The notes under the pieces are model-generated. The model did no database searches. It saw nothing but the letters and a program-made list of their open reading frames with translations, and had not been told where the DNA came from. Below, piece after piece: positions 3,208 to 64,000 of a stretch of 64,000 nt of DNA. Position numbers and translations under genes: made by a program. Source of the DNA: Croceicoccus sp. YJ47 (GTDB taxonomy: Bacteria; Pseudomonadota; Alphaproteobacteria; Sphingomonadales; Sphingomonadaceae); the NCBI RefSeq assembly GCF_016745095.1, contig NZ_CP067087.1, positions 1,538,501-1,602,500 of the forward strand, read 5' to 3'. How positions within the stretch are numbered: the first letter of the stretch is position 1; every line of letters begins with the position of its first letter.

Positions 3208-4008
3208 ATGCCCCGCATAGCCTACTGGCACGTCGATGCCTTCGCCGCCCGCGCGTTCGAGGGGAACCAGGCTGCCGTCATGCTGTTCGACGCCTTTCCC
3301 GACGATGCCACGATGCAGCGCATCGGCGAGGAGAACAATTTCGCCGAGACCGCCTTCGTCGTGCCGTATGACGGGGAGGAGGCGGATTATCACCTGCGCT
3401 GGTTCACGCCGGAGACGGAAATCCGGCTGTGCGGCCATGCGACGCTGGCGGCGGGGCATGCGTTGCTGACCCGCGATGGCGGCGCGGAACTGCGCTTTGC
3501 CACGCGGCGGGCGGGCATACTCCGCGTGCGGCGGCAGGGTGAGGGAGGCGAGGGTTACGCGCTCGCGCTGCCCGCGATCCCGACGCAGCCGGGCGAATGG
3601 CCCGCCGCCGTTGCCGGGCTGGGCGCGATGCCGCAGGCGATCCACCGCCACCCCGATGGCTACGACATCTTTCTCTATGACAGCGAGGAGGCCGTGCGCG
3701 CCTTGCGTCCCGACATGGCCGCGCTCGCCGCGCTGGGCGATGCGCAGTTCATCTGCACCGCGCCCGGCGCCGCGACCGACGTGGTCAGCCGCGTTTTCGT
3801 GCCCGGCGCCGGCGTTGCGGAGGACAGCGTCACCGGAAGCGCGCATGCCGCGCTCACCCCGTTCTGGGCAAAACGGCTGGGGCAGGCGGAATTCACCGCG
3901 TTTCAGGCCTCGCGCAGGGGCGGGCGGCTGACCTGCCGGCTCGATGGCGACACGGCGTGGCTGGGCGGGCCGTGCGTGACGGTGGTGACGGGCGAATTTG
4001 CCTACTGA
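3208..4008 (+). CDS. PhzF family isomerase/epimerase-like protein
   Basis: The 266-residue protein has the PhzF/YddE two-lobed fold. It begins with the typical YWHVDAFAARAFEGNQAAV block. The EENNFAETAFV segment carries the catalytic-type glutamate, RWFTPETEIRLCGHATLAA is the most conserved family signature, and EDSVTGSAHAAL near residue 210 completes the active site. In PhzF the family isomerises a dihydro-anthranilate on the phenazine path, but this gene stands alone with no phz partners, so the substrate is unknown. It follows the CDF gene by 6 bases and probably shares its transcript. Its end overlaps the convergent hydrolase gene by 7 bases. Confidence 0.9.
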   Translation: MPRIAYWHVDAFAARAFEGNQAAVMLFDAFPDDATMQRIGEENNFAETAFVVPYDGEEADYHLRWFTPETEIRLCGHATLAAGHALLTRDGGAELRFATRRAGILRVRRQGEGGEGYALALPAIPTQPGEWPAAVAGLGAMPQAIHRHPDGYDIFLYDSEEAVRALRPDMAALAALGDAQFICTAPGAATDVVSRVFVPGAGVAEDSVTGSAHAALTPFWAKRLGQAEFTAFQASRRGGRLTCRLDGDTAWLGGPCVTVVTGEFAY

Positions 4009-5123
4009 ACCGGGAACAGCGTCACGATTTCGCGCAATGCGGCATTGAGCGCGTCCATCTGGACCCGGTCCGAATTGCCGAGCCGCACGATCGTCAGCCC
4101 CTGTTCCGGCGAAACGATCGTGAATTGCCCCCGATGGCCGAGCGCGGCGAACAGCGTGTCCGGCGCATCGGCGGGAAACAGCACCGCATTGCGCCCCTCC
4201 GGCCGGGAATGGTTGAGCCAGACATGCCCGCCATAGGCCGGATCGCCGGGCGATGACGTCGTCATGAAACGCACCCAGGCACGCGGCACGATCTGCGCCC
4301 CGTTCGCCATGCCGCCCTTGCGCAGCATCTCCCCGAATTTCGCCCAGTCGCGCGCCGGGGCGTGGACCATGCTGCCCCCGATCATCGTGCCGGCGCGGTC
4401 ATATTCCGCGATCGTCGCATCCATGCCGACGGGATCGAACAGCCGCATCTGAAGATAGCGGTGCATCGCATCGCGCCGCCGGTCGGGGTCGGTGGAGCGG
4501 GTGAGCGCCCGCGCCGCAATATCGGCAAGGATGACGCTCGTCGGCGTGGCATAGTTGAACTGCTCTCCCGGCGTCTGGTCGAGCAGCTGCGTCTCGGCAT
4601 AGGCGGCCATGTCGTCGCGCCCGTCCACGGCGAGCATGCGGACCGTGTCGGCATCCTGTGCCGGGTTCGCGCTTTCGGCATGGCGCAGGCCGGAGCGCAT
4701 CTGCAACAAATGGCGGATGGTGATGTCGCCGCGCGGATCGCCGGGCCGCTGCCACGCGGGGATCGGCGCCGGATGATCCAGCGAAAGCGCCCCGTCCGCG
4801 ATCAGCATGCCGATGAGAACGCCGGTCACGGTCTTGCTCATCGACCAGCCGATCATGGCGGTGTCCGCATCATATGTTTCGGCATAGCGTTCGGCGACGA
4901 CCTTGCCATCGTGCAGGATCAGCAGCGCGCGCGTTTCGCCCGCCGCCTCGGCAAACACATCGTCGATGGCATAGGCGAGCTTTTCGCGGGGAACATCGGC
5001 GCCGCGCGGAATCGCGGCGCGCGATTCGGCACTTGGCGGCTGCGGGCCGGTTTCCTGTGGCGAACAGGCGGCGAGCGCTGGCACGCAGAGCAGGGCGAGC
5101 ATAGAAGGGAGGCGGCGCATCAT
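4002..5123 (-). CDS. Serine hydrolase of the class C beta-lactamase/PBP family, lipoprotein
   Basis: The 373-residue product begins with a lipoprotein signal peptide (MMRRLPSMLALLCVPALAAC; lipobox ALAAC, lipidated Cys20), so it should sit on the periplasmic side. The catalytic SxxK is SMSK at residues 94-97. A FNYATPTSVILADIAARAL segment occupies the place of the YxN motif, and a GHRGQFTIVSPEQGL block stands near the usual KTG position. This resembles esterase/NylB-type members more than true beta-lactamases, so antibiotic hydrolysis should not be assumed. It is transcribed divergently, with only 38 bases of spacing, from a small conserved membrane-anchored protein. Confidence 0.85.
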   Translation of the reverse strand: MMRRLPSMLALLCVPALAACSPQETGPQPPSAESRAAIPRGADVPREKLAYAIDDVFAEAAGETRALLILHDGKVVAERYAETYDADTAMIGWSMSKTVTGVLIGMLIADGALSLDHPAPIPAWQRPGDPRGDITIRHLLQMRSGLRHAESANPAQDADTVRMLAVDGRDDMAAYAETQLLDQTPGEQFNYATPTSVILADIAARALTRSTDPDRRRDAMHRYLQMRLFDPVGMDATIAEYDRAGTMIGGSMVHAPARDWAKFGEMLRKGGMANGAQIVPRAWVRFMTTSSPGDPAYGGHVWLNHSRPEGRNAVLFPADAPDTLFAALGHRGQFTIVSPEQGLTIVRLGNSDRVQMDALNAALREIVTLFPVQ

Positions 5124-57054: not shown

Positions 57055-57660
57055 TCAGGTTCCGTAGACGGCGGCACGGACCGCCACCATCCAGTCGGAC
57101 GGCCCGCATACCACGCCGCCGCCGCCCTGTTCCGCGCGCAGGTCGCCGCGCTTCATCGCCGGGTCCACGATAATGCTGCGGCTGAGGCGATATTCCTCGT
57201 CCAGCATCTCGATATCGGCGGGATGCATGCGCAGCACGGGCGGTTCACCGTCCGCGAGCGCGGCAATCGCGCGGTCGCATCGTGTCTTCAGCAAGCCGGG
57301 ATCGCCCGCCGCCTCGCCCAGCACGGCCTCGCACAGCAGGGTCACCGTTTCACGCAGCCGTTCGGCAAAGCGGCCACGCTCGTCGGCGTCGAGCCGAGTG
57401 AGCGCGCCGGCAAGGCGCGTGCGGATGGCCTCACGCTCGGCGAATTCGGCCTCGGCCTCGTCCCGGCCTTTCTGCAGCCCGTCGCCATAGGCGCGTTCGA
57501 TCGGATCGGGGCCGGCGTGTTCCTGCTCCGTATCGTCGTTTTCGTTCTGCGGTTCGGGAGGCGTGTCGGTAAAACGGCTGTCGGGCGCGAACATGCCGGT
57601 GGCCCGCGTATGATCGATCCAGGCGGCGTCGGAAACGTTGAGGGCGTTTTCCTTAAACAT
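57055..57660 (-). CDS. fliH: Flagellar assembly protein FliH
   Basis: The 201-residue protein has an acidic N-terminal part (about 15-55) and a GDGLQKGRDEAEAEFAEREA coiled coil with the family glycine-spaced pattern. A C-terminal domain follows, with DPAMKRGDLRAEQGGGGVVC and the conserved ending. FliH binds and holds FliI at the export gate. The ATG at 57660 overlaps fliG by eight bases; an upstream extension lies in fliG and is rejected. Confidence 0.88.
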   Translation of the reverse strand: MFKENALNVSDAAWIDHTRATGMFAPDSRFTDTPPEPQNENDDTEQEHAGPDPIERAYGDGLQKGRDEAEAEFAEREAIRTRLAGALTRLDADERGRFAERLRETVTLLCEAVLGEAAGDPGLLKTRCDRAIAALADGEPPVLRMHPADIEMLDEEYRLSRSIIVDPAMKRGDLRAEQGGGGVVCGPSDWMVAVRAAVYGT

Positions 57661-58660
57661 AATCGCCACCATCCGCGCCGAACATGATCTCGCCGCTCTC
57701 CGACAGGCGTCGGGCGATCTCGACAATGGATTCCTGCGCCTTCTCGACATCGGCGCGGCGCAGGCGGCCGCGGGTCTTGATCTCGTCCTTCACGCCGTCG
57801 GCGGCGCGCGCCGACATCGCGGCATAGAACGGTTCGCGCGCGTCTTCGTCCAGCCCCTTGAGCGCGTCGATGAGCACTTCGTTCTCGATCTCGCGCAGCA
57901 GGCGACCCATCGCCATCGGCTCGAGCGCGGTGAGCTGGTCGAAGCGGAACATTTCCGCCTCGATCTCGGAGGCGAGCTTGCGGTCGCGCTCCGCAATCGC
58001 GGGCATCACGTGTTTCTCCACCCCGGCGGCCCGGTTCATCAATTCGGCCGCCTCGCGCACGCCGCCAATCGCGAGCGTGCGATTGCCGAACCGTTCGGCA
58101 AGCCGCCGGTTCAGCAATTCATCGAGCATGGCGACGGCGTGCGAGGATACAGGGCCGATGCGGGCGACGCGTTCGACCACGCCGGACTGATGCCGTTTGG
58201 GCAGGGCGGCGAGCAGATGCGCCGCCGGTTCGGGATCGAGCATGAGCAGCAGCACGGCAATCGCCTGCGGATGTTCGTCTTCGAGCAGGGGCACGAGCAC
58301 CTCCGGCGTGAGCCAGCGGGCGATCTCGATCGTGCGGCTCGGCGCTGTGGGGACGATGCGGCTCATCATGCCGTGCGCCTTCACCTCGCCGACGGCGCGG
58401 GTCATGACGCGCGACAGATGGCTTTGCCGGTCGCCGACGCTGAACCCTTGCGCATCGGCGTGGGTGACGAAGGATTCGATGGCGCTTTCCAGGCCATCGC
58501 TCTCGATCTCGCCGAGCTTCACCATGTGGCTGCCCAGCCGTTCCAGCTCTTCGGGTTCGAGCTGTGCCAGGAGGTTCGCGGCGCTGTCGTCGTCGAGCAG
58601 CATCACGATCATTGCCGCCCGGTCGGCCTCGCTCAGGGATGCGGGTTGCACGGCGGTCAT
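57653..58660 (-). CDS. fliG: Flagellar motor switch protein FliG
   Basis: The 335-residue C-ring protein connects the MS ring to FliM and carries the torque helix. The N-domain (LSEADRAAMIVMLLDDDSAA) binds FliF. The EHPQAIAVLLLMLDPEPAAH motif marks the middle domain (EHPQ). The C-domain includes FRFDQL-type residues in EMFRFDQLTALEPMAMG and the charged helix LLREIENEVLIDALKGLDED. ATGA overlap with fliF shows their coupled synthesis. Confidence 0.96.
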   Translation of the reverse strand: MTAVQPASLSEADRAAMIVMLLDDDSAANLLAQLEPEELERLGSHMVKLGEIESDGLESAIESFVTHADAQGFSVGDRQSHLSRVMTRAVGEVKAHGMMSRIVPTAPSRTIEIARWLTPEVLVPLLEDEHPQAIAVLLLMLDPEPAAHLLAALPKRHQSGVVERVARIGPVSSHAVAMLDELLNRRLAERFGNRTLAIGGVREAAELMNRAAGVEKHVMPAIAERDRKLASEIEAEMFRFDQLTALEPMAMGRLLREIENEVLIDALKGLDEDAREPFYAAMSARAADGVKDEIKTRGRLRRADVEKAQESIVEIARRLSESGEIMFGADGGDYV

Positions 58661-59386
58661 GCGGCTTCCTTTTCGGGCTCGGCCTTGCCGCGCGCGGATG
58701 TATCGTCGTCGTCATCGGCAATGGTTTCGGACGGCACCGCCAACATGCGGCGCAGCGCGGTGACGGCGCGGTCGGGCTGTTCGGTGGCAAGCTGACGGGC
58801 GAGCGCGACATGCTCGCGCAGCCTTTCGCCCTGCTTGCCCTTCAACCCTGCGGGCATTTCGCTTTCGATGTCGATGATGGCGTCGGGGTCGCGTTCCTCG
58901 GCCGTGTCGCCGTTCGGTTGCGGATCGGCGACCGGGTTCCGCTCCTTCAACGCCTTCACGATGGGCCGCACGCCGAACACCAGCGCCAAGATCACCGCGA
59001 TCAGCGCGACGACATTGCGCAGCACGGTGGCAAACCACGCGGTCTCCCAGAACGGCGCCTCCTCCATCGCGGCGGCTTCGAACCCGCCGGTGACGACGGT
59101 GACCTCGTCGCCGCGATCCGTCTGCGCACCGACGGCGGAGGCGACCAGCCGTTCGATATTCGCGCCGGTGGCGGGCGCAATGGCGGCGAGCGCCTCCTGG
59201 CTGATGGCGACGGCGACGGACAGGCGCTTCACCCCGCCCGGGCCATTGCTCGAGACGGCGACCTCACGGCCCAGCTCATAGGTGCGGCGGGCGCTGCTTT
59301 CGCCGGTGGTCTGGGTGGGCGCGCCGGGGGCGGTGCCTTCGGGGGCGCCATCCTCGATCCCCGTGGGCGGGGGCGGTGTGTTGGAG
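58657..59386 (-). pseudogene. fliF: Flagellar MS-ring protein FliF, C-terminal part only (cut by IS6100)
   Basis: Only the C-terminal 243 codons remain. They begin in the conserved SNTPPPP segment, continue through TYELGREVAVSSNGPGGVKR and KRLSVAVAIS, the second membrane helix (VVALIAVILALVFGV) and the FliG-binding C-terminus. The first half, including the first membrane helix and most of the periplasmic ring-building motifs, is missing and is replaced by IS6100. A promoter from the IS could still express the downstream genes, but a functional MS ring is not possible from this copy. Confidence 0.93.
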
Positions 59387-60266
59387 GGCTCTGTTGCAAA
59401 AATCGTGAAGCTTGAGCATGCTTGGCGGAGATTGGACGGACGGAACGATGACGGATTTCAAGTGGCGCCATTTCCAGGGTGATGTGATCCTGTGGGCGGT
59501 GCGCTGGTATTGTCGCTATCCGATCAGCTATCGCGACCTTGAGGAAATGCTGGCGGAACGCGGCATTTCGGTCGACCATACGACGATCTATCGCTGGGTC
59601 CAGTGCTACGCCCCGGAGATGGAGAAGCGGCTGCGCTGGTTCTGGCGGCGTGGCTTTGATCCGAGCTGGCGCCTGGATGAAACCTACGTCAAGGTGCGGG
59701 GCAAGTGGACCTACCTGTACCGGGCAGTCGACAAGCGGGGCGACACGATCGATTTCTACCTGTCGCCGACCCGCAGCGCCAAGGCAGCGAAGCGGTTCCT
59801 GGGCAAGGCCCTGCGAGGCCTGAAGCACTGGGAAAAGCCTGCCACGCTCAATACCGACAAAGCGCCGAGCTATGGTGCAGCGATCACCGAATTGAAGCGC
59901 GAAGGAAAGCTGGACCGGGAGACGGCCCACCGGCAGGTGAAGTATCTCAATAACGTGATCGAGGCCGATCACGGAAAGCTCAAGATACTGATCAAGCCGG
60001 TGCGCGGTTTCAAATCGATCCCCACGGCCTATGCCACGATCAAGGGATTCGAAGTCATGCGAGCCCTGCGCAAAGGACAGGCTCGCCCCTGGTGCCTGCA
60101 GCCCGGCATCAGGGGCGAGGTGCGCCTTGTGGAGAGAGCTTTTGGCATTGGGCCCTCGGCGCTGACGGAGGCCATGGGCATGCTCAACCACCATTTCGCA
60201 GCAGCCGCCTGATCGGCGCAGAGCGACAGCCTACCTCTGACTGCCGCCAATCTTTGCAACAGAGCC
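59387..60266 (+). mobile_element. IS6100 (IS6 family), complete, 880 bp
   Basis: The element is exactly 880 bases between perfect 14-base terminal inverted repeats GGCTCTGTTGCAAA (59387-59400) and its complement ending at 60266. It contains one intact transposase gene. The eight bases on the two sides (TGTTGGAG left, GTGACGAG right) differ, so there is no target duplication. That is expected when an IS6 element has caused an adjacent deletion or has recombined with another copy. Length, ends and protein all match IS6100. Confidence 0.97.
59418..60212 (+). CDS. tnpA: IS6100 transposase (DDE, IS6 family)
   Basis: The 264-residue transposase has the zinc-finger/HTH start (FKWRHFQGDVILWAVRWYCR and ISYRDLEEMLAERGISVDHT) and the DDE catalytic core: D in WRLDETYVKVRGKWTYLY, D in LNTDKAPSY, E in NNVIEADHGKLK. 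It moves the IS by replicative transposition, making cointegrates or deletions. The ATG at 59418 gives the standard 264-residue form. A downstream ATG (59448) gives 254 residues. The protein appears complete and active. Confidence 0.96.
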   Translation: MLGGDWTDGTMTDFKWRHFQGDVILWAVRWYCRYPISYRDLEEMLAERGISVDHTTIYRWVQCYAPEMEKRLRWFWRRGFDPSWRLDETYVKVRGKWTYLYRAVDKRGDTIDFYLSPTRSAKAAKRFLGKALRGLKHWEKPATLNTDKAPSYGAAITELKREGKLDRETAHRQVKYLNNVIEADHGKLKILIKPVRGFKSIPTAYATIKGFEVMRALRKGQARPWCLQPGIRGEVRLVERAFGIGPSALTEAMGMLNHHFAAAA

Positions 60267-60446
60267 GTGACGAGCGTTCCCGGCCATGCGGCTTTCGTGG
60301 ACCGCGTTTGCGAGGTGCGCTTTGCCCGCGACGGCAAGGTGCATGTTGATCTCAACCACTGGACCGCAACAACGATCTACCCCGAGGCCGAACAGGTGCG
60401 GGTGATCGCGCGGCGTAGCCAACTTATGGAGGCAACACCAAAATGA
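60267..60446 (+). pseudogene. 3' remnant of an unidentified gene, cut by IS6100
   Basis: An open frame of 59 codons runs from the IS edge (first codon GTG by chance) and ends in a TGA at 60444-60446. Its product VTSVPGHAAFVDRVCEVRFA continues to RRSQLMEATPK. The 5' end was probably removed by the IS, as the frame enters from the IS border. It is not recognised. The stop overlaps a small downstream frame as ATGA, which suggests these were once real, coupled genes in the donor. Confidence 0.4.
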
Positions 60447-60529
60447 CTCAGCCCAAGGTTTGCCGGGTGATGGACGAGGAAATGACCAAGCAGGGTTTCC
60501 CGGCCTCGCAACGCGGCCCGGCCAAGTAG
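60443..60529 (+). CDS. Very small open frame (28 residues), hypothetical
   Basis: The frame MTQPKVCRVMDEEMTKQGFP and eight further residues is coupled to the preceding remnant by ATGA and preceded by GGAGGC about ten bases upstream of its ATG, a good ribosome binding site. Too short to assign. It may be a real small peptide or the start of a gene broken before 60529. Confidence 0.3.
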   Translation: MTQPKVCRVMDEEMTKQGFPASQRGPAK

Positions 60530-60575
60530 GAGGTGCGCTTTGCGTGATCCAGCGGACGAAGGCCGCACCCATGAA

Positions 60576-60770
60576 ATGACCTTGCCCGGCGGATCGGGCG
60601 CGCGGATCGGCTACGCCCGCGTGTCCACGCCGGAGCAGGACATGAGCTTGCAGATCGACGCGCTAGAGCGCGCCGGTTGCTCCCGCATCTTTCAGGCCCA
60701 GTCGGCCCGAAGCTGCGATTTTGGCCAACTCAAGGAACGGATAGCGAACGTGCAGTCACGTAGAAGCTGA
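60576..60770 (+). pseudogene. Truncated serine recombinase/resolvase (N-terminal fragment)
   Basis: About 40 residues (60576-60695) match the N-terminus of Tn3-type resolvases, including RIGYARVSTPEQDMSLQIDA with the catalytic serine and LERAGCSRIFQ. Beyond this, in AQSARSCDFG, the sequence diverges and stops at 60770. The breakpoint near 60696 therefore marks a recombination junction. The fragment differs from the intact recombinase on the other strand next to it, so two resolvases from different elements once met here. Confidence 0.8.
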
Positions 60771-61322
60771 CTCCGAACCTTGACCTTTCAAGGCGCGGTA
60801 GACAGTCATCCTGGAAATGTTCAGCTCACGCGCAACGGCGGCTTTCGTTGCGCCAGCCGCGATTTGCCTGCGGATTTCCGCGTCATCGACATTCTTTTTC
60901 CTACCCGTATAGATGCCGTCAGCTTTTGCCGCGTCGATGCCGGCTCGTTGCCTGTCTTTGATGAACTTGAGTTCCATGTCCGCGACCATGCCGAGGATGG
61001 TGATGACCATTCGGCCCATACTTCCGGTCGTCGTAACTTCGGGCTCAAGAATGCGAAGTGACGCGCCCTTTTCGTCAAGCTCATGAACGAGATTGAGAAC
61101 GTCGCGTGTGGAACGGCCGAGCCGATCAAGTCGCAGAACCACCAGCTCGTCGCCCGCATGCAGAAACTGCATGATGGTCTCCAGCTCGGAGCGCCCCTTT
61201 CGGGACGCCCCTGATCCGGTTTCCGAGCGGATGATTTCGCAACCTGCGGCCTTCAGACGCTCGTTCTGAATATCGAGGTCCTGATCTGTGGTGCTGACGC
61301 GAGCGTATCCGATGCGGGCCAT
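60756..61322 (-). CDS. Serine recombinase (resolvase/invertase family)
   Basis: The 188-residue protein is complete: catalytic Ser10 in GYARVSTTDQD, the LVVLRLDRLGRSTRDVLNLV block with conserved Arg residues, the dimer/E helix (GRMVITILGMVADMELKFIK) and a C-terminal DNA-binding helix-turn-helix (IAAGATKAAVARELNISRMT). It would resolve cointegrates or invert DNA at a res site. Its stop overlaps the opposite resolvase fragment by 15 bases. A candidate res region lies directly upstream. Confidence 0.93.
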   Translation of the reverse strand: MARIGYARVSTTDQDLDIQNERLKAAGCEIIRSETGSGASRKGRSELETIMQFLHAGDELVVLRLDRLGRSTRDVLNLVHELDEKGASLRILEPEVTTTGSMGRMVITILGMVADMELKFIKDRQRAGIDAAKADGIYTGRKKNVDDAEIRRQIAAGATKAAVARELNISRMTVYRALKGQGSESAST

Positions 61323-61329
61323 ATCGATT

Positions 61330-61513
61330 CTGTAACATTAGGGTGGTTCCTATAGTGTAACGTCACTTTTATCGAAAATGCACCCTTTTGTTACACTCCA
61401 TGCGCGTCACATTTGAATATCACTTTAGGGCGCACCCAAAAGTGACGCTAGGCAAAACGCTGTCGCAAAAGTCATCCGCTTCAGGCGGACCTTCACGACC
61501 GAAATTTGCGACA
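61330..61513. other. Candidate res region of the adjacent serine recombinase
   Basis: This AT-richer stretch directly upstream of the recombinase has nested inverted repeats: GTGTAAC/GTTACAC at 61355-61361 and 61390-61396 (with another TGTAAC at 61331), CGTCACTTTT/AAAAGTGACG at 61361-61370 and 61438-61447, and TGTCGCAAA/TTTGCGACA at 61461-61469 and 61505-61513. Several dyads before a resolvase gene fit res subsites and its promoter. The exact crossover site cannot be given by eye. Confidence 0.45.
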
Positions 61514-61588
61514 CGAATTTGAGTGCGATTTCAGCTCGCAATATTTCCAATGAAAAGTCAGGATTTCCGCGACACGCGACCGAACTGC

Positions 61589-62044
61589 CTATTCGTCTAC
61601 GCCCTGCGTCAACTCGGAAGGCACGCTGTGGATTTCTACATCATGTCCTGCTGCAACCTTCTTGAGACGGGAGAGGTAATGTTTCCAGCCCAAGGCATGG
61701 CGCACCTGTTCCTCAACAGGTAAGCTGTGATGAACAATGGTTACGCGCGTGCCGGTATCTTCTGTTGCGAGAATGACTTCCAGCCTGCTTGCATGCGGAG
61801 GAAAGCATGCCGATCCTTGCCGGCCCCATCCGATGACGAGCCGGCTGGGAGGAGTGACTTCAACATATCGGCCTTCGACAATCTTGTCGTCAAACCTTAG
61901 CAGGAAAATGCCGCCTGGCTGCGGATCGACCGATGCCTCATCTCCCATCCACGCGACGATCGCTTCGGGTTCGATGAAGTATCGGAAAACCTCGTCCTGC
62001 CTTGCATGGACAAGAATAGAGTGGCGAAAGGGTTCAACTGTCAC
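61589..62044 (-). CDS. SRPBCC (AHSA1-type) domain protein
   Basis: The 151-residue protein has the START-like AHSA1 fold: ILVHARQDEVFRYFIEPEAI, VAWMGDEASVDPQPGGIFLL, and a C-terminal helix VEEQVRHALGWKHYLSRLKK. These proteins bind hydrophobic ligands; many sit beside an ArsR-type regulator, exactly as here. The start is a GTG at 62044 overlapping the ArsR frame by 11 bases, so it was translated with the regulator. The binding partner is not known. Confidence 0.88.
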   Translation of the reverse strand: MTVEPFRHSILVHARQDEVFRYFIEPEAIVAWMGDEASVDPQPGGIFLLRFDDKIVEGRYVEVTPPSRLVIGWGRQGSACFPPHASRLEVILATEDTGTRVTIVHHSLPVEEQVRHALGWKHYLSRLKKVAAGHDVEIHSVPSELTQGVDE

Positions 62045-62325
62045 GCTTGGCCTCCAAGACGGATTTCAGCCTTTGCAACCCGTCTGGCCAAAGCTCGCTC
62101 AGGAACCTGTCGAGAGCATCGATACCATCAGCCGCCAGCGTATATCGTACCACGGCCGGGACGATCCGCCCTGACCAGGCCAGCCGATTCAAGAATGTGA
62201 AGATGTTGAGACACGGCCTGTTGCGTAATGTCGAGGGCATCCCGAAGCTCGTTTGCGGAGCAAGCGGCATTGCGCACCATGCGCAAGATTTCGCGACGGC
62301 GCGGCTCAGCAAGAGCGTTTATGCC
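62034..62325 (-). pseudogene. ArsR-type HTH regulator, truncated and frameshifted
   Basis: The winged-helix core is clear (INALAEPRRREILRMVRNAA, ELRDALDITQQAVSQHLHIL, ESAGLVRADRPGR). Near 62146-62154 the frame shifts by one base; removing one G from CGTGGTACG would restore the junction to RYTLAADGIDALDRFLSELW and the normal end. At the 5' side, no start codon is found in frame, and the homology stops at about 62322, where a different gene fragment begins. The regulator is thus broken at both ends. Confidence 0.8.
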
Positions 62326-62331
62326 ATATCC

Positions 62332-63648
62332 GCCACCTCCAGCTTCGATGAGTTCCTCGAACCCGCCGCCAATGCGGCGCTGCCGCTCTATGCCAGCCCG
62401 GCGATCCTCGTCGAGCATGAGGGCCTGCGCCTCGACACCGGCACGCCGGGGCCGATGCGCGCGCCCGGCGAAGCCAGCGGCTCGGCGGCGCTCGAAGTCG
62501 CCATGGACGAAGCGTACGAAGCCTGCGGCATGGATCCGCTCGCCTTCCGGATGGCGAACTACGCCGAGACGGAGCCCGGCAGCGGCCGACCCTTCTCCTC
62601 GAAGGCGCTGCGGGATTGCTATGCCGAGGGCGCGAAACGCTTCGGCTGGTCGAAGCGCCCGCTGCAGCCGCGCCAGATGCGCGACAAGAACGGGTTCCTC
62701 GTCGGCTGGGGCATGGGCACGGCGGTGTTTCCCTGCCCGCATTTCCCGGCCTCGGCACGAGCGACTTTGCGCGCCGACGGCAGCGCCCTGATCGAGACCG
62801 CCGGCGCCGATATGGGCCAGGGTGCCTGGACGGCGCTGGCCCAGATCGGGGCGGAAGCGCTCGGCCTCGATCCGGCCCAGGTCGAATTCCGGTCCGGCAT
62901 TTCCACCCTGCCGGATGGCGGCATTGCCGGCGGCTCCGGCCATACCGCCAGCGCCGGCCAGGCGCTGCACGAGGCGGGGCATGACGCCATCGCCACGCTG
63001 ACGGCATTGGCGGTCAACGATCCGGAATCGCCGCTTTACGGCGCCGGCAATATCGGCATCGCCGCCCGAAACGGCCGCCTGCATCGTCGCGACGACGAAG
63101 GGCGCAGCGAAACCTATGCCGCAATCCTCGCCCGCGCCGGAATGCGCGAGGTGGTCGGCACGGCGAAGACGGCGCGCGATCCGGCCGCCGCCGCCGCATA
63201 TGCCATGTATTCGCATGGTGCGGTGTTTGCCGAGGTGACCATCGATCCCGATCTCGGGCAGATACGCGCGACGCGCCTCGTCGGCGCCTTCGCCGCCGGG
63301 CGGATCATCAATCCGCTGACGGTGCGCAGCCAGTATTACGGCGGCATGATCTGGGGTGCCTCCTTCGCGCTGCATGAGGAGGCGGTGACCGACCGTCGCA
63401 CCGGTCGGATCATGAATGCGGATCTCGCCGAATACCATGTGCCCGTCAATGCCGACGTCCCGTCGCTGGAGGCGATCCTGGTGCCGGAAGAGGATGCCTT
63501 CGTCAATCCGATCGGCGTCAAGGGCGTCGGCGAAATCGGCATCACCGGCACCGTTGGCGCCATCGCCAATGCCATCTGGCATGCGACCGGCGTGCGGGTG
63601 CGGCGTTTCCCCGTTCGTATCGAGGAACTCCTGCCGGCGCTGGGATAA
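62332..63648 (+). pseudogene. Xanthine dehydrogenase/aldehyde oxidase-type molybdenum-binding subunit, 5' truncated
   Basis: About 438 codons of the C-terminal part of a large Mo-cofactor-binding subunit (PaoC/YagR-like, normally about 730 or more residues). Recognised parts include TSSFDEFLEPAANAALPLYA, DTGTPGPMRAPGEASGSAAL (substrate and Mo-site region), and IETAGADMGQGAWTALAQIG. The final GVKGVGEIGITGTVGAIANA contains the catalytic Glu of this family. The 5' half and any start codon are missing at the junction at about 62330. Partner Fe-S and FAD subunits are absent. The protein is unlikely to be functional. Confidence 0.9.
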
Positions 63649-63664
63649 CGCGATGTCCGCAAAA

Positions 63665-63690
63665 CCCTTCTCCCCGTGTGGGGAGAAGGG
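63665..63690. repeat. Perfect 11-base palindrome of the Rhizobiales intergenic type, possibly also a terminator
   Basis: CCCTTCTCCCC-GTGT-GGGGAGAAGGG lies in the gap between the molybdenum subunit fragment and the amidase. On the minus strand it is followed by TTTT, so it may end amidase transcription. Palindromes with CTTCTCCCC...GGGGAGAAG are spread in great numbers between genes in Rhizobium and Agrobacterium, so it is also a clue to the origin of this DNA. Confidence 0.7.
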
Positions 63691-63718
63691 GTCAAAGACA
63701 ATGCCCTCCCCGATATCT

Positions 63719-64000
63719 TCACCGGCTGGCGTGGATCGGCGGCAGGCGGTCGAACCAGGGGCGGGCTTCCTCGAGGTCGCGGGCGAGGCGCACCAAAGTC
63801 GCCTCGTCGGCGAAGCGGCCGACGACCTGGATGCCGACCGGCATGCCCTCCGCGCTCATGCCGAGCGGCAGGCTGACGGAGGGCTGGCCGGTAGCGTTGA
63901 AGGTGCCGAGGAAGGTGAACAGCGTTGTATCGCTTTCGGAAAAATCGGCGGCCGTCAGGTCTTCGCGCGTCGTCGAGAAGAGGCCGTGCGGCGGCGCCGT
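63719..64000 (-). CDS. Amidase (amidase-signature family), C-terminal part (runs off the window)
   Basis: The last 93 codons of an amidase of the GatA-like signature family. The end region is typical: LFTFLGTFNATGQPSVSLPL, GMSAEGMPVGIQVVGRFADE, then LARDLEEARPWFDRLPPI. The catalytic Ser-Ser-Lys part is outside the window, so activity cannot be judged. It points towards the molybdenum-subunit fragment and is separated from it by the palindrome. Substrate unknown. Confidence 0.88.
   Translation of the reverse strand, partial: TAPPHGLFSTTREDLTAADFSESDTTLFTFLGTFNATGQPSVSLPLGMSAEGMPVGIQVVGRFADEATLVRLARDLEEARPWFDRLPPIHASR

Follow-up and report, generated by a model that had tools for sequence, protein, structure and literature searches.

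What event left fliF of Croceicoccus sp. YJ47 truncated by a copy of IS6100 devoid of target duplication, and what has taken the place of the missing flagellar DNA? The window, i.e., the whole stretch of 64,000 bp that was analyzed, corresponds to bases 1538501 to 1602500 of a single-contig genome of 3,353,209 bases. Features of the junction are given below in window coordinates; coordinates on the contig (C1) are used elsewhere.

57656..58660, minus strand: ORF in the fliG position, downstream of fliF, intact, 99% to relative G009
58660..59386, minus strand: 3′ remnant of fliF, residues 336 to 578 of a relative, 98%
59379..59386, no strand: left flank TGTTGGAG, inside fliF, without partner among 17 distinct IS6100 flank 8-mers
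59387..60266, plus strand: IS6100, intact 880-bp element at the left edge of the block
59387..59400, plus strand: left 14-bp terminal inverted repeat, exact
60253..60266, minus strand: right 14-bp terminal inverted repeat, exact
60267..60274, no strand: right flank GTGACGAG, where the block begins, without partner
60267..64000, no strand: start of the block, which runs on to C1:1661461, beyond the window
60756..61322, minus strand: serine resolvase/recombinase of Tn3-type plasmid DNA
61589..62044, minus strand: SRPBCC/AHSA1-type protein, within DNA that a Rhizobium plasmid shares at 99.7%
62170..62313, minus strand: ArsR-type helix-turn-helix stretch
63719..64000, minus strand: amidase C-terminal piece, 35% to NylA, running past the window end

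The ORF downstream of fliF is presumably fliG, a name that we assign from its position. As stated in the original prediction, IS6100 is an intact 880-bp element bounded by exact 14-bp terminal inverted repeats (GGCTCTGTTGCAAA), such ends occurring twice in the window versus 0.02 times by chance with one mismatch allowed. The IS6100 array, used as the query, matched at least 5,000 plasmid records, in which the best places are named IS6100 transposase. The absence of a target duplication was borne out, since the 8-mers abutting the element differ (TGTTGGAG on the left and GTGACGAG on the right). The fliF gene, which is read on the minus strand, is indeed cut on the left, retaining only residues 336 to 578 of the 578 residues found in a relative. 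The DNA on the right was said to be other than the rest of fliF, and the GTGACGAG side did not align to the flagellar region of the relatives. Loss of the N-terminal half of FliF was likewise confirmed, as the search for the FliF family (PF01514) gave no match in the one genome searched, the positive control matching in 4 of 14 known genomes. A second IS6100 copy flanked by TGTTGGAG or GTGACGAG, which the original prediction had proposed to look for, was not detected in either orientation among the 17 distinct flank 8-mers.

Comparison with close relatives located the other chromosomal end of the junction. We rejected GTGACGAG for this role because the other end is in flgJ, 63.6 kb away, where a second IS6100 copy cuts the gene next to the chromosomal flank GTCCCGGT. 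The notion of an IS-driven deletion junction therefore holds for a deletion bounded by IS6100, but not for the DNA that directly adjoins the copy in fliF. In the alignment, homology to G009 stops at C1:1597885/6 and restarts at 1661462/4, matching positions 109649 and 100576 of G009, so that ~9.07 kb is missing from this genome and the place of this flagellar segment is taken by a different stretch of 63,575 bp. Alignment with G002 revealed the same deletion. G009 and G002 are drafts of about 60 and 90 contigs, respectively, and are the closest genomes at the flagellar region (97% identity to G009 for the flg region). An IS6100-bounded deletion is supported, since the segment was not found here, these two relatives keep it between the cut points, and IS6100 abuts both chromosomal break points. 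A search for IS6100 in G009 and G002 gave no match.

In G009, the lost segment comprises the 3′ part of flgJ, flgK, flgL, motA, motB, an unnamed stretch (two overlapping, mechanically picked ORFs without a family), a gene for an FlbD-like regulator, fliE, and the 5′ part of fliF. For flgJ the family match was weak and the name rests on position as well, and motB and the FlbD-like sigma-54 regulator scored below their family cutoffs. The ~9.07 kb was not found elsewhere in the genome by DNA comparison, which returned six short hits (the best by E value being 68% over 274 bp) that are probably paralogues of the regulator. Consistently, the Flg_bbr_C family numbers four members here but five in every one of four relatives, FlgK being the member that is lacking, and about 32 codons remain of flgJ. 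The claim that everything upstream of fliF had been deleted or moved was thus correct for the 5′ part of fliF and the ~9.07 kb, but flgI to flgA and flhA survive past the right edge of the block. Mechanically picked ORFs of G009 lying outside the deletion, some of them on the wrong strand, matched at 84 to 100% in the compared stretch; three short ORFs matched over 89 to 94% of their length, one ran off the stretch, and the rest matched end to end or nearly so. This conservation points to a recent loss. The cell is predicted to be nonmotile. Five of the remaining 13 genomes in the genus (G001, G003, G004, G008, and G010) likewise gave no FliF, indicating that flagellar loss is common in Croceicoccus; its cost in this strain may have been small, since such loss is common in genomes devoid of the block. 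Flagella were thus lost, or never held, in several lines of the genus that do not have this block.

The 63,575-bp block, whose genes look foreign, carries identical IS6100 copies in the same orientation at its two edges, and its G+C content is 0.603 versus 0.67 in the surrounding DNA. Such a pair of edge copies in direct repeat is expected of a pseudo-compound transposon of the IS6 type, but the outer 8-mers do not match (TGTTGGAG versus GTCCCGGT). Because of these unmatched flanks and of the 9.07 kb missing between them, we did not classify the block as an intact transposon. No replication or partition gene was found among the 30 ORFs scanned in the block. Among the matches listed for the larger block pieces in the plasmid collection (at least 5,000 records), the best places were mostly IS6100. 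The amidase of the block that lies nearest to the fliF junction (C1:1602219-1603646) contains one in-frame TAG.

Sixteen IS6100 matches were retrieved from the genome, among 40 scored of 66 first-look candidates, and all are located within 83 kb (C1:1597870-1680841), from the fliF copy on. They represent 15 elements, i.e., 14 full elements and one split into two halves. Eleven full elements are 880 bp long and three are 879 bp long; the latter are all inside an array described below and are each short of one base in a run of three or four. Across 14 genomes of the genus, any match to IS6100 was obtained in five, with a full-length identical copy only in the genome under study (G000) and in G008, which has one; G013 contains pieces at 98 to 100%, and G007 and G011 contain diverged relatives of IS6100.

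The 17 distinct flank 8-mers include four matched pairs, namely GAATTTTG, CGGTGGTG, GAAATTGG with its reverse complement, and CGATCAGC with its reverse complement. Drawing 18 random sites from a 140-kb region gave 0.016 pairs on average and four pairs in none of 20,000 draws; a fifth coincidence, GGCAAGAG, was left uncounted, as it belongs to duplicated sequence beside nylA. Three of these events display an 8-bp duplication. The composite at 1674823-1680840 has directly repeated IS copies, a CGGTGGTG duplication, and an empty site in G009, as expected for a pseudo-compound transposon. The composite at 1606327-1619964 is flanked by a GAATTTTG duplication and has an empty site in the Tn3 transposons of two plasmids: once the composite is removed, the run aligns to the Tn3 transposon ends of Agrobacterium and Rhizobium plasmids without a gap at the join (2 plasmid records compared of 182 matched). 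The CGATCAGC event is an insertion of IS6100 into another IS6100, one copy involved being that which cuts flgJ. With an overlap of exactly 8 bp, the halves of the split element (1641417-1642162 and 1660440-1660581) together make one exact 880-bp element. One half is found today at either end of the array, and the two point in opposite directions; an inversion of the intervening stretch is therefore likely.

The matched 8-mers GAAATTGG and CCAATTTC, which lie beside two IS6100 elements at C1:1613369 and 1641417, suggest one more rearrangement, the order of which conflicts with the Tn3 empty-site evidence. When this rearrangement was undone as an inversion, the joined 600-base query matched two plasmid records, on the IclR side only. 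The Tn3 ends support the present orientation of the stretches that flank the 13.6-kb composite, and this is hard to fit with a later inversion.

The array (C1:1643043-1660439) consists of a unit, CACACGGT...GACTGAAG, followed by IS6100 and repeated in tandem with steps of 2,747 to 2,750 bp, except for one step of 4,441 bp that holds a truncated unit. The last unit extends to GGCAAGAG, and every full unit contains one nylA gene. The block as a whole has seven full-length nylA copies and a fragment, six copies and the fragment being in the array and the seventh copy (1617244-1618719) adjoining another amidase gene. It is predicted that nylA was amplified as an IS6100-nylA tandem unit. In unit 5, the first 1,060 bp is gone directly beside IS6100 without a duplication, which is the same signature as that of the fliF junction.

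The open frame of unit 4 (334 residues) is almost identical to NylA, the 6-aminohexanoate-cyclic-dimer hydrolase whose structure has been solved (706 bits to 3a2p over residues 1 to 331), and is 98% identical to protein P0001. Lys72, Ser150, and Ser174, the NylA triad, are in place in unit 4, the one unit compared. As assembled, none of the seven full-length copies has an intact frame of 493 codons. Each displays two to four small length changes relative to an intact relative, at least one of them frame breaking, at the same sites (about codons 233, 332, and 434) and with lengths that vary by copy; the seventh copy is free of the indel at codon 233. The nylA genes of two further relatives have no such length changes; the frames of L072 and L073 are intact, and L074 is likewise without an indel. 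Together with the three IS6100 copies that are one base short, these changes are read as unpolished long-read errors, i.e., likely consensus errors in repeats beyond the reach of polishing. Inherited decay is possible because every copy, including the distant one, breaks near codon 332. Since the indels affect every assembled copy, NylA function stays predicted.

Intact nylA genes that are nearly identical (98%) were found in Sulfitobacter delicatus DSM 16477 and in an alphaproteobacterial metagenome-assembled genome (MAG). Novosphingobium cyanobacteriorum HBC54 has a full-length match at 97%, and Sphingobium cyanobacteriorum HBC34 has a match at 98% over 158 residues. All four contigs have IS6100 at an end, and three of them have it at both ends. 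The nylA unit gave no match in the plasmid collection. An amidase matching NylA is present in all 14 genomes of the genus, and among the matches listed only that of the strain's own genome exceeds 45%.

Which mechanism joined the block to the flagellar genes? We hold with good confidence that IS6100 was the agent of the flagellar loss, with adjacent deletion favored over recombination. IS6100 is implicated because both break points (fliF at TGTTGGAG and flgJ at GTCCCGGT) abut copies of this element in the same orientation with unmatched flanks and because the nearby events, i.e., two composites with empty sites and a nested insertion with an inversion, support it. Given this agent, the likely route is adjacent deletion, whereas recombination of one copy with another has a minor chance. 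In the former, the first step would have been the entry of a circular or composite unit of IS6100 at one of the two sites, generating an 8-bp duplication. An edge copy of IS6100 would then have attacked a second target ~9 kb off and deleted outward. Both the flagellar DNA and one of the two duplicated 8-mers would have gone in this step, which would leave outer flanks that do not match. We infer the duplication of the first step because one of its copies must be lost in the second. The nylA unit would have been amplified in tandem, in the way that IS26 amplifies resistance genes (PMC7986276). No intermediate of the adjacent-deletion route was found.

Alternatively, IS6100 copies residing in fliF and flgJ may have recombined, thereby deleting the 9 kb, and a circular IS6100 plasmid or unit may then have integrated at the remaining copy. 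We consider this unlikely. Both mechanisms leave the same junctions, the edge copies are directly repeated and identical as recombination requires, and deletions near the lin genes are ascribed to recombination in the section of PMC4478539 on these genes. However, the chromosome would have had to undergo two insertions, one recombination, and one integration, and of the 14 genomes of the genus, the closest two showed no IS6100 and only a single full-length identical copy is present in G008. In addition, unit 5 of the array exemplifies loss beside IS6100 within the block, although recombination could do that too.

An assembly artefact, in which a single IS6100 copy would mark the fliF-flgJ deletion and the block would be a separate plasmid misjoined at this repeat, is improbable. 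The joins do fall in an identical 880-bp repeat, and the indels in nylA and in 3 of the 14 full IS6100 copies suggest an imperfect consensus in the array. However, the block ORFs scanned provided none of the replication or partition genes of a plasmid, and the second composite, which lies 13 kb beyond the block, is embedded in chromosomal DNA with a proper duplication and an empty site in G009. The 9-kb IS6100-bounded loss would stand regardless. Finally, a simple IS6100 insertion in fliF with its duplication hidden by a sequencing error accounts for the intact IS6100 ends and nothing more, and it is refuted by the missing FliF family, by the resumption of the chromosome in flgJ, and by the failure to find the 5′ half of fliF next to GTGACGAG in the relatives compared or the lost segment anywhere in the genome.

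Beyond nylA, the block encodes an omega-aminotransferase that matches 6g4b, the Pseudomonas jessenii enzyme, from end to end with 835 bits. A semialdehyde dehydrogenase scored above the curated cutoff for succinate-semialdehyde dehydrogenase, and a 3-oxoadipyl-CoA thiolase scored 721 bits for a cutoff of 622 bits; a FadB-type protein was below its cutoffs. Parts of an electron transfer flavoprotein, an acyl-CoA dehydrogenase, a CoA-transferase, an IclR regulator, and a piece of a 3-hydroxyacyl-CoA dehydrogenase are also encoded. A plasmid of Pseudomonas kurunegalensis brings together genes that bear the names thiolase, CoA-transferase, and flavoproteins. The dehydrogenase-aminotransferase-FadB stretch matched in 247 of 298 genomes of the family at an E value of 0.001 or better; among the matches listed, it was full length only in the strain's own genome, the others being 64 to 72% over parts and therefore taken as ordinary homologues.

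From these sequence similarities, the block is predicted to specify the breakdown of nylon-6 oligomers by NylA, the omega-aminotransferase, the semialdehyde dehydrogenase, and an adipate-type beta-oxidation. By analogy, the gene set fits the conversion of 6-aminohexanoate to adipate and onward described for the caprolactam pathway in the relevant part of PMC6061476. For the linear-oligomer step, the search for NylC by family PF03576 gave no match, and three proteins matched PF00144; comparison with solved structures, made for the single one encoded in the window, showed a weak likeness to NylB. This beta-lactamase-fold hydrolase (window 4002-5123, minus strand), located 54 kb from the block, was not accepted as NylB, its E value to NylB being only about 1e−11. 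With no NylC family match and no convincing NylB among the proteins checked, the linear-oligomer step is a gap in the route. Candidates for it are two further block amidases at 35% to NylA, one of which contains a TAG codon in frame.

IS6100 and IS26 belong to the IS6 family, for which pseudo-compound transposons, translocatable units, and tandem arrays are described in the overview of PMC7986276. The locus resembles this family in its 880-bp element with 14-bp ends, 8-bp duplications, directly repeated edges, IS-gene-IS-gene arrays, and inversions; it differs in the unmatched outer flanks of the whole block and in that the amplified gene is catabolic instead of a resistance gene. According to the portion of PMC4478539 that deals with the lin regions of hexachlorocyclohexane-degrading sphingomonads, these also feature clustered IS6100 around catabolic genes in Sphingomonadales and IS6100-linked deletions, whereas the pathway, the tandem nylA array, and the flagellar cluster as the site are specific to the locus studied here. 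The same portion mentions only 2 to 5 IS6100 copies as known in nylon and similar cases, versus 15 elements here. The association of nyl genes with IS6100 on plasmid pOAD2 is credited to Kato et al. (1994) in passages of PMC7986276, PMC2848856, PMC4478539, and PMC7494797. As in pOAD2, IS6100 occurs together with a NylA nearly identical to the solved hydrolase. In contrast to pOAD2, compared here by citation and not by sequence, the locus is chromosomal, has seven full-length nylA copies and a fragment, lacks a NylC family match, and has other downstream genes. The caprolactam cluster of P. jessenii, as presented in part in PMC6061476, likewise combines an omega-aminotransferase, an adjoining succinate-semialdehyde-type dehydrogenase, and a CoA-transferase, but here NylA is present and the genes are scattered between IS6100 copies. 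The car and fdr regions of Sphingomonas sp. XLDN2-5, in the account of PMC2848856 covering them, similarly consist of several IS6100-bounded catabolic pieces without an outer duplication; unlike that case, which comes without an empty-site comparison, the chromosomal loss was measured here.

IS6100, its composites, arrays, and deletions, and the association of IS6100 with nylon genes (pOAD2, as cited in a passage of PMC7986276) are thus already known, as is IS6100-driven pathway building in sphingomonad degraders of hexachlorocyclohexane and carbazole. To this pathway building, the locus adds an instructive chromosomal cost. None of the matches listed, considered by title and opening of the abstract, was a published report of this Croceicoccus locus. 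The literature searches returned nothing pairing nylA with IS6100 or IS6100 tandem amplification with Sphingobium, and for Croceicoccus and nylon they returned a match on diatoms only.

Tentatively, the locus can be read as the catabolism of a nylon by-product in the course of evolving: IS6100 would have imported the route in several moves and amplified nylA at the cost of the flagellum, gene dosage being selected over motility. The predicted route in this scheme leads from the cyclic dimer to 6-aminohexanoate, adipate, and acetyl-CoA, nylA having reached seven copies or more, of which six are arranged in tandem. Nonmotility, growth on the nylon-6 cyclic dimer, and an array copy number that varies with selection are the predicted traits. 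A chromosomal case of nylon-oligomer catabolism would suit the question of how gene amplification and genome damage are paired under a man-made substrate.

The 6-kb composite at C1:1674823-1680840 (L020/L021), beyond the window, carries genes for a TonB-dependent receptor and a TetR-type regulator. Because a receptor with 53% protein identity is encoded beside nylA in the alphaproteobacterial MAG (L073), the TonB-dependent receptor may function in oligomer uptake. Next to this composite, ~5.4 kb (C1:1681158-1686610) is present in this genome and in G002 and is missing in G009.
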